DNA of 64,000 bases, taken from the NCBI RefSeq assembly GCF_000506985.1, contig NZ_KI650981.1, positions 171,122-235,121 of the forward strand, given 5' to 3'. The DNA is from Advenella kashmirensis W13003 (GTDB lineage: Bacteria; Pseudomonadota; Gammaproteobacteria; Burkholderiales; Burkholderiaceae_B). How positions within the stretch are numbered: position 1 is the first letter of the stretch; each line of letters starts with the position of its first letter. The translations under genes and the position numbers were made by a program. Of the stretch, positions 30,747 through 33,975 are shown piece after piece. Under the pieces are notes generated by a model that searched no databases, had not been told where the DNA came from, and saw only the letters and a program-made list of their open reading frames with translations.

Positions 30747-31061
30747 TTATGACGAGAGTTTCATCAGGACCAGTCCGCCTATGATGAGGGCAGCGGCCAG
30801 AATGCGCATCGCGCTCATGGGTTCATGCAGGAAGACAATACCCACCACGAAAGCGCCCACTGCGCCGATGCCGGTCCAGACCGTGTACGCAGTACCCAGC
30901 GGTAGTGTTCGCATGGACCAGGACAACAGGCCGAAGCTCAAAATCATGGCCACCAGTGTGATAGAGGTCGCGCCAAGTTTCGTAAAACCTTCCGACTGCT
31001 TCATGGAGAACGCCCATACGATCTCCAGCAGACCCGCGATAAATAATAGAATCCAGGCCAT
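30747..31061 (-). CDS. gdx: Small multidrug resistance protein, guanidinium exporter (SugE/Gdx) type
   Basis: 104-residue protein with four membrane helices, the standard SMR size. The conserved Glu is in LLFIAGLLEIVWAFSMKQS at the position coupling proton exchange. The motif AYTVWTGIGAVGAF and the early WAFSMKQSEGFT are marks of the SugE/Gdx branch, whose members export guanidinium, rather than the EmrE branch. The start ATG at 31061 has AAGGAGG (31073 down to 31067). The gene is preceded by a guanidine-II riboswitch, which independently supports the guanidinium function. Confidence 0.93.
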   Translation of the reverse strand: MAWILLFIAGLLEIVWAFSMKQSEGFTKLGATSITLVAMILSFGLLSWSMRTLPLGTAYTVWTGIGAVGAFVVGIVFLHEPMSAMRILAAALIIGGLVLMKLSS

Positions 31062-31125
31062 TTGGGCCTCCTTTCATAAACGGGTCGTCCCGAACAAGGT
31101 TCCCAAATGGGCGGGGTCGTCCCCG
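31058..31125 (-). promoter_or_regulatory. Guanidine-II (mini-ykkC) riboswitch with expression platform
   Basis: On the minus strand two short GC hairpins with identical ACGA loops stand 19 bases apart: CGGGG-ACGA-CCCCG (31125-31112) and CGGG-ACGA-CCCG (31092-31081). Twin hairpins with ACGR loops directly ahead of a SugE/SMR gene define the mini-ykkC class that binds guanidinium. The linker explains control: its CCATTTGGG (31110-31102) is fully complementary to CCCAAATGG at the start codon (31066-31058), and its CCTT (31099-31096) to AAGG of the ribosome-binding site (31073-31070). Without ligand this duplex would hide the start; guanidinium-stabilised hairpins would free it. Confidence 0.9.
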
Positions 31126-31340
31126 GCGAAATTATAGCACTTGTATTAGTGCGATGCGGCATGGATTCGGCTGCTTTTGCAGGTGTCAGAGCCAGCCGAT
31201 ATATGAGGAGTAGTTATGAGGCAGTCGAGACGCCGGACAGGAAGGTAAAGGTCATTGTGTTGTTCTATAGTCCTATGTCATATATGATGTGGACGGTAAG
31301 AATAATACGCCTCTAATAACAGCCTATATCAGGAGATTAC

Positions 31341-32222
31341 ATGAATTTTTTCACCCGGACCTGCCTGCGGGTCCTCACATTATCCTTAACCGGTCTCACA
31401 CCATTAGCTGGCCAGGCGGCGGCCCCCCAGGGCAGACATATTGCTTTGCCAGGCGTCAATCTGTGGTATACGGACACAGGGGGCGATGGCGAACCGCTGG
31501 TGTTGCTGCATGCCAATACTGGCACCAGCGCAAGCTGGGAATACCAACAGGACGATTTTTCAAGGGCCGGATACCGGGTGATAGCCTTCGATCGCAGGGG
31601 GTCGGGCCAGAGCACCCCGGATTCCTCCAGCGGTGCCCAGCCGGGCACCGTGGCGGATGACCTGGACGCGCTGGTCAAACAACTGGGAATCGACCGGTTT
31701 CATTTGCTTGGCATAGCGGGCGGAGGCTTTATCGCCCTGGATTATGCCGCGTGGCATGGCGACAAGCTGCAAAGCCTGACAGTCGCCGCCAGTACCGGGT
31801 CGATTCAGGAAGACGAGATCCAGCAATTCATCAAGCGCATTGAAATTCCGGGCATACGCGAGCAATCGGCAACTTATCGCGAAGTAGGGGCATCTTACCG
31901 CGGCGCCAATCCCGAGGGCCTGAAAAAATGGCACGATATTGAAGAAGGTGCCCGGCAGGCGGGTGTCCCTTCGCAACCATTGCGGTCACCCAATACCTAC
32001 CAAAAAATTTCACAATTGAATATGCCCGTATCCGTGATCAGCGCTGGCGCTGATCTGCTGGCACCGCCCGCGTTAATGATGTTATGGGTTAAGCACCTTG
32101 CCCAACACGAATGGACGCTGATTCCGGATGCCGGCCATGCCGTCGCGTGGGAGCGTCCTGAGCAATTCAATAAAACGGTGCTTGCGTTTCTTGCGAAGCA
32201 TAGGGTGAAGCGCAGCGGGTGA
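31341..32222 (+). CDS. Secreted alpha/beta-hydrolase-fold protein with Ala at the nucleophile position
   Basis: 293 residues, starting with a Sec signal peptide (FFTRTCLRVLTLSLTGLTPL, cleavage near GQAAA). The alpha/beta-hydrolase pattern is clear: VVLLHANTG-like LVLLHANTG for the oxyanion loop, FDRRGSGQS, and late VISAGADLLAPP and PDAGHAVAWERPEQF for the acid and His. The nucleophile elbow, normally GxSxG, reads GIAGG, with Ala at about residue 126 (codon 31716-31718). Ordinary esterase chemistry is thus not expected; a cofactor-free oxygenase/lyase-like or binding role is possible. It stands alone, with AGGAG before the ATG. Confidence 0.85.
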   Translation: MNFFTRTCLRVLTLSLTGLTPLAGQAAAPQGRHIALPGVNLWYTDTGGDGEPLVLLHANTGTSASWEYQQDDFSRAGYRVIAFDRRGSGQSTPDSSSGAQPGTVADDLDALVKQLGIDRFHLLGIAGGGFIALDYAAWHGDKLQSLTVAASTGSIQEDEIQQFIKRIEIPGIREQSATYREVGASYRGANPEGLKKWHDIEEGARQAGVPSQPLRSPNTYQKISQLNMPVSVISAGADLLAPPALMMLWVKHLAQHEWTLIPDAGHAVAWERPEQFNKTVLAFLAKHRVKRSG

Positions 32223-33093: not shown

Positions 33094-33975
33094 TCAGGCC
33101 GCCTGTGTGTACAGATTTTCGATCCAATGACCGCTTTGCAGTTCATTCGGTCGTTGTGCGGCACACACAATTGCGTTGTCGGGCCAGAACTCTCGCATCA
33201 CACGCGTGCCTGCAAATATCCCATAGCCGGCACCACAACGAATTTCATCCGCGGCAATAATACTTTCGCCGGCCATGATCGATCCGGTCGCCACGATCGT
33301 GCTGTCTGCCTGAATACCCCAGTCGGCTTTGATATGCATGCCGCTTTTGATTTCACCTCTGGCAATAATGCCTTCCCCTACAGTCAAATTGCCATCGACG
33401 GAAATATTGCCGCCCGCGCGCACGCTTTTACCGCAACGCAGCGTTTCGGCGCAGACAATTTCTTCGCCTGCGACAATGGCGCCGCCAACGTCCATGCCCG
33501 TGGCGCAGGTCAGTGACCAGCCGGCGCGAACATCGCCCTCGCACTGGAAGCAGCCTTGCACGTCGATGCCCCAGCCTGCTTTGATCGACCCTTCGACAAC
33601 GACCTTGCCGCTGCAGCTCAGGTTTCCGTCCACAAACAGATCGCCTTCGATATGAATATCGCCACCGACCCGCACGCTTCCCTGAACATGCAGATCGCCC
33701 GCTACGCGCAGTACGGAGTCACTATGCAGGTTCCCGCCGATGGTCAGGCTGGCTGCGGCTACGACCGCTTCGCTGTCCAGGCTGTCAATGGATTGTCCGT
33801 CCTTGACCGGACCAAACTGATCAACGAGCCAGCAGGCATCGGTGACCCGGCCCTCGGCAAGCAGGGTGTCGATGAGGTACTGATAATCGGCCCCGTCCGG
33901 GGTGTTTTTCAAAAACCAGCGGAAACCGCTGGAGCAGGGCTGTTTTGAGCGTATTGTTTTTTTACTGAGGTCCAT
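33094..33975 (-). CDS. Bactofilin-like repeat protein (polymer-forming, predicted beta-helix)
   Basis: 293 residues. The first 75 are a mixed globular region (FLKNTPDGADYQYLIDTLL). Residues about 75-260 consist of many short strands repeating a pattern such as G-D-I-x-V-x-G-x-L (GGDIHIEGDLFVDGNL, SGKVVVEGSIKAG, GGNISVDGNLTVGEG), the right-handed beta-helix pattern of bactofilins. A Cys-containing subset of strands (QGCFQCEGDV, VCAETLRCGKSV) is unusual. There is no signal peptide, so it is cytoplasmic. Its length and N-domain differ from typical 130-180-residue bactofilins. GAGAG precedes the ATG. It is not obviously operon-linked. Confidence 0.75.
   Translation of the reverse strand: MDLSKKTIRSKQPCSSGFRWFLKNTPDGADYQYLIDTLLAEGRVTDACWLVDQFGPVKDGQSIDSLDSEAVVAAASLTIGGNLHSDSVLRVAGDLHVQGSVRVGGDIHIEGDLFVDGNLSCSGKVVVEGSIKAGWGIDVQGCFQCEGDVRAGWSLTCATGMDVGGAIVAGEEIVCAETLRCGKSVRAGGNISVDGNLTVGEGIIARGEIKSGMHIKADWGIQADSTIVATGSIMAGESIIAADEIRCGAGYGIFAGTRVMREFWPDNAIVCAAQRPNELQSGHWIENLYTQAA

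Follow-up and report, generated by a model that had tools for sequence, protein, structure and literature searches.

Structural work on guanidine-II riboswitches, the closest described relatives of the leader analyzed here, has revealed kissing loops, pockets for guanidinium (Gdm+) and a stretched linker, which has to reach across the two stems and adopts a well extended form upon loop pairing; linkers of at least 13 nt are found in the great majority of class members (PMC5486947). Masking of the Shine-Dalgarno sequence by the linker goes back to Reiss and Strobel 2017, as cited in PMC9094411, and is drawn in the same way in PMC9300104 and PMC7544219. The term 'start codon' is absent from the texts of these three papers, figures apart; in that of PMC9561414 it occurs once, in a figure legend. 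The latter study, on P. aeruginosa, tested mutants of a P0 helix and reported ligand-dependent initiation, and according to its authors direct biochemical evidence for sequestration had been lacking before their own assay (PMC9561414). For G. violaceus, a stem-loop has been suggested that overlaps both P2 and the ribosome site (PMC5486947).

We analyzed a 64,000-nt stretch of the Advenella kashmirensis W13003 genome, referred to as the window, which carries a guanidine-II (mini-ykkC) motif, RF01068, on the minus strand at 31081-31125, 5' of an SMR/SugE gene. When the whole window is scanned with Rfam cmscan, the single match at or above the gathering threshold is RF01068 (Guanidine-II, 31128-31080, minus strand), with a score of 35.7 bits against a cut-off of 32 and an E value of 0.0018. 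The same genome holds seven RF01068 matches with E ≤10, among which that of the window alone passes the cut-off, and no guanidine-I match with E ≤0.001. On the minus strand, the leader is composed of hairpin P1 (CGGGG-ACGA-CCCCG, 31112-31125, tetraloop 31117-31120), a 19-nt linker with the sequence CCCATTTGGGAACCTTGTT (31093-31111) and hairpin P2 (CGGG-ACGA-CCCG, 31081-31092, tetraloop 31085-31088). Both hairpins have G+C stems, ACGR-type loops and G-C closing pairs, and the linker length lies within the range of at least 13 nt known for the class. Read from 31125 to 31044 of the minus strand, P1, linker and P2 are followed by TTTATGAAAGGAGGCCCAA and then by the start of a 104-codon gene. The spacer after P2 contains AAAGGAGG on the same strand; a Shine-Dalgarno sequence, AAGGAGG, assigned by sequence and by its position before AUG, is located at 31067-31073, and the ATG at 31061 lies 19 nt from P2. 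The leader is thus, by its sequence, a guanidine-II riboswitch of the plain tetraloop type, with ligand binding and switching predicted, in agreement with the original prediction of a mini-ykkC element made of two ACGA hairpins ahead of a SugE/Gdx gene.

A -10-like TATAAT box preceded by TG, as in an extended -10 element, was noticed by eye on the minus strand at 31131-31136, 5 nt 5' of P1, and, also by eye, such a box precedes P1 in five other close Advenella leaders; a scan for -35/-10 promoter pairs returned none at the leader, and the box is known by eye alone. Abutting it upstream is an inverted repeat, GCACTAATACAAGTGC (31137-31152, minus strand), a possible operator; the leaders of the five other close Advenella do not show it.

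The gene downstream (30747-31061, minus strand) encodes a 104-residue SMR transporter of the SugE/Gdx type. Its product matches PF00893, the Pfam SMR family, at 102.2 bits and the NCBIfam SugE model NF008512 at 119.5 bits, just below the cut-off of 126, the next model scoring 71.3 bits. The closest solved structures are the SMR chains 8vxu and 6wk5, and the protein is 95% identical to SugE of A. incenata. Judged by these matches, the motif lies upstream of a gene of the guanidine export/metabolism kind, with guanidinium export as the putative function. Upstream of the leader and divergent from it, an α/β hydrolase gene with uncertain substrate occupies 31341-32222; further away, on the minus strand at 33094-33975, a 293-residue protein has weak bactofilin, FapA and MinC-like matches below the Pfam cut-offs.

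The linker and the start region of the gene are complementary. The 9/9 match claimed between the 19-base linker and the start region is exact by sequence, CCATTTGGG (31110-31102) facing CCCAAATGG (31066-31058). In the minimum free energy fold computed with RNAfold, the linker segment CCAUUUGGG pairs with CCCAAAUGG and CCUU pairs with GAGG, while both P1 and P2 are kept. One arm of the predicted duplex is CCAUUUGGG-AA-CCUU (31096-31110, minus strand), which is both anti-start and anti-Shine-Dalgarno; the other, AAGGAGGCCCAAAUGG (31058-31073, minus strand), runs from the Shine-Dalgarno sequence to codon 2. The energy of P1 and P2 together, -13.4 kcal/mol, decreases to -25.4 when the start helix is added and to -29.4 or -30.1 with the Shine-Dalgarno pairs. 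The pairing of CCTT with AAGG of the ribosome site put forward earlier (31073-31070) corresponds to the total of -30.1 kcal/mol and is near-degenerate with the GAGG register (31070-31067), which gives -29.4. Over the RNAfold ensemble, which covers secondary structure without kissing or ligand, the linker covers 0.87 of positions -12 to +3, 0.99 of the AUG and 0.77 of positions -12 to -5, placing the linker on the Shine-Dalgarno sequence in the predicted ligand-free fold; pairing of the Shine-Dalgarno sequence and the AUG with the spacer amounts to 0.00.

Two alternative structures compete with this duplex. The linker can form a mini-hairpin abutting P1, termed PL (CCC-AUUU-GGG, 31102-31111, minus strand), which brings P1 and P2 from -13.4 to -17.2 kcal/mol, and the start region can form a hairpin of its own once the linker is released (AGGCC-CAAAU-GGCCU, 31055-31069, minus strand), which a terminator scan also picks up as a stem-loop. 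The fold with P1, P2, PL and the start hairpin reaches -25.1 kcal/mol against -30.1 for the OFF fold, a gap of about 5 kcal/mol that could be repaid by the ligand. The OFF duplex is predicted to exclude PL and the start hairpin, both P1 and P2 surviving. The duplex proposed in the original prediction is therefore recovered by RNAfold, but its opposition of the duplex (off) to the twin hairpins (on) does not hold in that form: since both hairpins persist in the OFF fold, the switch is better described as an exchange between a linker paired with the start region and a linker that is free or paired with itself while the loops kiss.

We assign a probability of about two in three to the reading that the window holds a guanidine-II switch turning on the translation of a guanidinium exporter, in which a linker-start OFF helix would stand in place of P3, a helix at the end of P2 that is formed in many sugE leaders of the GCN-TGG gene type. 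Without guanidinium, P1 and P2 would be folded and the linker would pair with the Shine-Dalgarno sequence and the start codon, through 9 bp over CCCAAAUGG and 4 bp over GAGG or AAGG. The OFF state would then be one long rod with P2 at its tip and P1 at its foot, the loops pointing apart and the ribosome excluded; the geometry of such a rod-shaped fold would also preclude P1-P2 kissing. Guanidinium bound to both ACGA loops would promote kissing of P1 and P2, which needs a stretched or self-paired linker, and kissing would free the start region, allowing the exporter to be made. Guanidinium binding and kissing are taken from the guanidine-II literature (PMC5486947), and we infer the direction of switching and the takeover of the P3 role by the linker helix.

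The extent of the predicted masking is unusual. The value of 0.87 over positions -12 to +3 is the highest among 85 non-redundant SugE leaders and is reached by none of 1000 mononucleotide-shuffled linkers and by none of the 84 linkers swapped in from relatives; in a larger set of 99 leaders, the window again ranks first by masking of the Shine-Dalgarno sequence and AUG. When the linker is shuffled with its dinucleotides preserved, 244 of 20,000 versions (1.2%) can form a perfect 9-bp helix with positions -19 to +9; taken by itself, the 9/9 match is moderately surprising at most. The energy of the whole fold is ordinary (z -1.11; 30 of 200 shuffles equally good). The net OFF-minus-ON energy was discarded as a test because it is uninformative, 298 of 1000 shuffled linkers being as good and the window ranking 56th of 85. 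The 85 leaders derive from 150, of which 21 have no detectable hairpin pair; removal of these, of two artefacts and of one duplicate of the window left 126, reduced to 85 at 0.85 similarity. The larger set comprises 160 leaders, 99 of them non-redundant, and part of the swap tests described below, among them those on 65 GCN-TGG and 30 other leaders, draw on the 95 with at least 16 nt after P2. Swaps preserve composition and correct only partly for relatedness.

The linker-start helix is predicted to be kept in all six of the ten searched Advenella genomes that hold a close SugE (at least 89% identity) with a leader; these six are close kin, and the conservation is in effect the evidence of one lineage. 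Variable columns number 2 of 15 in the linker arm and 2 of 16 in the start arm, against 6 of 7 in the spacer after P2 and 79 of 104 among third codon positions. In leader L249, the start arm reads CCCGAAUGG, with pairing maintained by a G.U pair, and the linker carries CCUC instead of CCUU, a strengthening change that gives a full match to GAGG. The other two variable arm columns (a bulge; AAGG/CAGG) lend no support to pairing. A more distant congener (G045, 73% SugE identity) has a tetraloop leader, L181, with a different linker.

Beyond Advenella, the comparison gives another picture. The linker masks at least half of positions -12 to +3 in 5 of the 85 non-redundant leaders, the window included, and masking of this region is weakly above that of swapped pairs (432 of 5000 swaps as high for the 85 leaders, 119 of 5000 for 60 GCN-TGG leaders). 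When the pairing between linker and start is scored by itself, swaps are as good in 545 of 3000 cases for the 85 leaders, 488 of 3000 for the 60, and 795 of 2000 for 65 GCN-TGG leaders. With 5000 swaps, 1962 are as good at n=65 and 2341 at n=27; a mild signal is confined to the two smallest subsets, n=7 (148) and n=6 (403). Given this lack of excess over swaps in the larger sets, start masking as a class-wide feature was rejected, and the linker-start complementarity, sought across relatives as the original prediction proposed, is retained within the six Advenella but does not extend to the class. In E. coli K-12 gdx (L243:2812-2896), a member of the class that has been studied, the linker pairs with positions -12 to +3 at 0.00 in RNAfold. 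Its minimum free energy fold pairs the P2 5' arm with GUCCU, from the G of AUG onward, unlike the usual linker drawing.

Linker and Shine-Dalgarno sequence, on the other hand, match better than swapped pairs in GCN-TGG leaders, with 5 of 2000 swaps as good for the 65 leaders and 13 of 5000 at n=27; Shine-Dalgarno and start jointly also exceed swaps in 60 GCN-TGG leaders (28 of 3000). This excess is in line with the published anti-Shine-Dalgarno model (PMC9094411, PMC9300104, PMC7544219, in the parts available) and could suggest that the window is an ordinary switch of this type, where the functional contact would be that of CCUU with AAGG or GAGG, the start pairing being incidental. We consider this improbable for the window, where most of the energy gained over P1 and P2 comes from the 9-bp start helix, as given above. 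Moreover, the linker/Shine-Dalgarno signal is gone in the smallest subsets (of 5000 swaps, 639 are as good at n=7 and 3958 at n=6), and 30 non-GCN-TGG leaders show no excess (1701 of 2000).

The strongest co-evolving pairing in GCN-TGG leaders is P3, defined here as the last 3 nt of P2 with the next 6 nt, paired against positions -10 to +3. None of 2000 swaps is as good for the 65 leaders and none of 5000 at n=27, in a swap test in which many pairings were tried; in the small subsets, 23 of 5000 are as good at n=7 and 381 of 5000 at n=6. In the 30 non-GCN-TGG leaders, neither the linker nor the P3 pairing is above swaps. P3 helices of at least 5 bp are found in 19 of 22 leaders with a six-base P1 loop (hexaloop; mean of 7.9 after shuffling, the count being reached in 0 of 300 shuffles) and in 25 of 40 tetraloop GCN-TGG leaders, among them the window (16.5, 0 of 300). 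They are also present in 4 of 6 leaders with a five-base loop (pentaloop; 2.6, 64 of 300) and, among the other tetraloop leaders, in 10 of 30 (7.8, 69 of 300). P3 looks like a platform for expression that is common among GCN-TGG sugE leaders. The window could in principle use it as many relatives may, with the last bases of P2 and those after it pairing to the region before AUG; the stem-loop suggested for G. violaceus is a precedent, and a 5-bp CGUUU:AAAUG helix can still form. P3 is weak here, at -2.0 kcal/mol, and reaches -4.6 in leader L067 (UUCUUU:AAGGAG), compared with -13.0 to -16.0 in five of six further leaders and -7.0 in the sixth, L135. With this energy and the null pairing of the window's spacer with its Shine-Dalgarno sequence and AUG, a P3-type platform appears very improbable for the window.

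A further explanation concerns PL. A PL-like helix, taken as 3 bp with at least two G-C pairs where the linker borders P1, is found in 21 of 22 hexaloop leaders (9.4 in shuffled linkers) and in all six pentaloop leaders (1.0), counts attained in 0 of 300 shuffles each. It also occurs in 19 of 40 tetraloop GCN-TGG leaders (5.9; 0 of 300 as many); of the 31 other tetraloop leaders, 7 have it (3.8; 12 of 300). The versions seen are CCC/GGG, CTC/GAG, CCA/TGG and CAC/GTG. The CCC...GGG of the linker is thus a widespread self-hairpin, which gives part of the linker-start complementarity a second source. It could have been kept for PL only, the match then arising from the CCCAA of the spacer before AUGG, with regulation achieved by other pairings or steric effects; the lack of excess in the linker/start swaps of the 65 leaders would fit such a by-product. 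We regard this explanation as unlikely, although it is the most plausible of the three rivals. None of the 84 other linkers, many of which have CCC...GGG, masks the start of the window equally, and PL requires neither the UUU:AAA center nor the CCUU/CCUC pairs, which nevertheless remain paired in all six Advenella. The support for PL is also uneven: besides the low count in other tetraloop leaders, additional inner pairs are more frequent than expected among hexaloop leaders (14 versus 6.9; 30 of 2000), an excess that the tetraloop GCN-TGG leaders lack (1063 of 2000), and a looser test on tetraloop leaders gives 36 of 62 versus 29.3, with up to 39 in 300 shuffles.

The comparison of leaders also brought out variants of the P1 loop. 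A six-base loop, CCACGH, replaces ACGR in many sugE leaders (L067:1933-1946, L068:1933-1946, L069:1931-1944 and at least 30 further loci), carried by the five other close Advenella and by many alphaproteobacteria. In these Advenella, P1 reads GAGG- or GGGG-CCACGA-CCTC/CCCC, while the window has the loop ACGA and does not belong to the hexaloop type. Among the best 80 of 547 SugE loci, 32 have a two-base insert, 10 a one-base insert, 17 a tetraloop and 19 none, and 2 are artefacts. The two artefact rows (L075 and L093, '3-nt insert') turned out on re-reading to be hexaloops, and L072, L290, L292, L293 and L298 carry CCACGT but are classed as 'none' in the tree set, so the hexaloop counts are low. 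In L072, L292 and L293, the closing pairs around CCACGT differ while the hexamer stays, which suggests that the hexamer is the conserved unit. A five-base loop, AACGA or AACGG, is present in L088, L089, L095, L099, L118, L120, L123, L132, L137, L145, L301 and L302, with hosts including Stenotrophomonas, Acinetobacter, Phenylobacterium and Afipia.

The P2 of hexaloop leaders is near-invariant, CCGGG-ACGG-CCCGG, with an exception in L246 (ACGA), which lies outside the non-redundant set. A CCGGG stem is found in 22 of 22 hexaloop leaders versus 14 of 71 tetraloop leaders, and an ACGG loop in 21 of 22 versus 37 of 71. The Rfam model scores the hexaloop leader L069 at 24.6 bits and does not list L067 and L068 at E ≤10. 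A model built on hexaloop leaders gave 21 matches at E ≤0.0001 in a 398-genome sample of the phylum, consisting of 12 hexaloops, 2 pentaloops and 7 tetraloops. The Rfam model found 84 genomes of the same sample at E ≤0.001, and all 12 hexaloop genomes are absent from them, both searches having used Infernal's stricter filters, which lose weak matches. Where the downstream frame of a hexaloop match is correctly read, it starts a SugE-like protein, a few rows having another frame or none. Rfam therefore largely misses hexaloop leaders, and guanidine-II-like leaders may be undercounted in alphaproteobacteria.

No loop-insert guanidine-II subtype was found among the literature titles searched, a partial coverage. 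An updated consensus based on 1977 bacterial examples is mentioned in PMC12335538 (Nat Commun 2025), and the available part of that paper proposes that vertebrate variant hairpins might pair with a consensus hairpin to give a single pocket; by analogy, the hexaloop P1 and its strict P2 could be a one-pocket design. Among sugE-associated candidate motifs, GGAM-5 is known from Alpha- and Betaproteobacteria and GGAM-3 from Betaproteobacteria, and guanidine binding by GGAM-2 to -6 was absent in first experiments (PMC7736828, in part). Compared by description only, the hexaloop subtype could overlap GGAM-3 or GGAM-5, and GGAM-5 could be the same as the hexaloop; GGAM-5 precedes a variety of genes (PMC7736828), however, while readable hexaloop matches precede SugE-like ones, which counts against identity.

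In a tree of 153 SugE-related rows (106 columns, with 79 of 150 inner branches open), the window lies inside a six-row Advenella set with five hexaloops and one tetraloop (SH-aLRT 95), itself nested in a weaker set (84) of mostly alphaproteobacterial rows. A broader reading, which we hold tentatively and at less than even odds, would join these observations. The guanidine-II leaders of GCN-TGG sugE genes would include an unrecognized CCACGH-P1 subtype with a near-invariant P2, and P3, more than the linker, would be their usual platform. Advenella would have taken over such a leader, in which P3 decayed and was replaced by the linker-start helix, and the window would represent a natural change from hexaloop to tetraloop that kept the linker/start helix, both loop types doing the same job. 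The Advenella set, with both loop types in front of one gene, lends itself naturally to their comparison.

The window is known in kind, masking of the ribosome site by the linker being already published. It shares with the RF01068 class the two GC hairpins with ACGA loops, the 19-nt linker and the SMR/SugE gene downstream, and differs in the nearly complete masking of the start codon predicted for its linker, at least half masking being limited to 5 of 85 leaders. Compared with GGAM-5 and GGAM-3, it is a plain tetraloop guanidine-II leader. With the device suggested for G. violaceus, as described in the part of the source available, it has in common a helix exclusive with the folded riboswitch that hides the ribosome site; the G. 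violaceus helix is similar to P3, a weak pairing in the window, while many relatives with the GCN-TGG gene type may use such a P2-end helix instead. The anti-Shine-Dalgarno models, based on the linker or on the P0 helix (PMC9561414, in part), agree with the reading of the window in placing linker or flanks on the ribosome site in the OFF state, from which ligand-driven kissing frees it. The guanidine-II OFF state is usually drawn with the linker against the Shine-Dalgarno sequence; the Advenella lineage provides an unusually clear predicted linker-start helix, with 9 of the 13 pairs in the window falling on the start codon and its neighbors.
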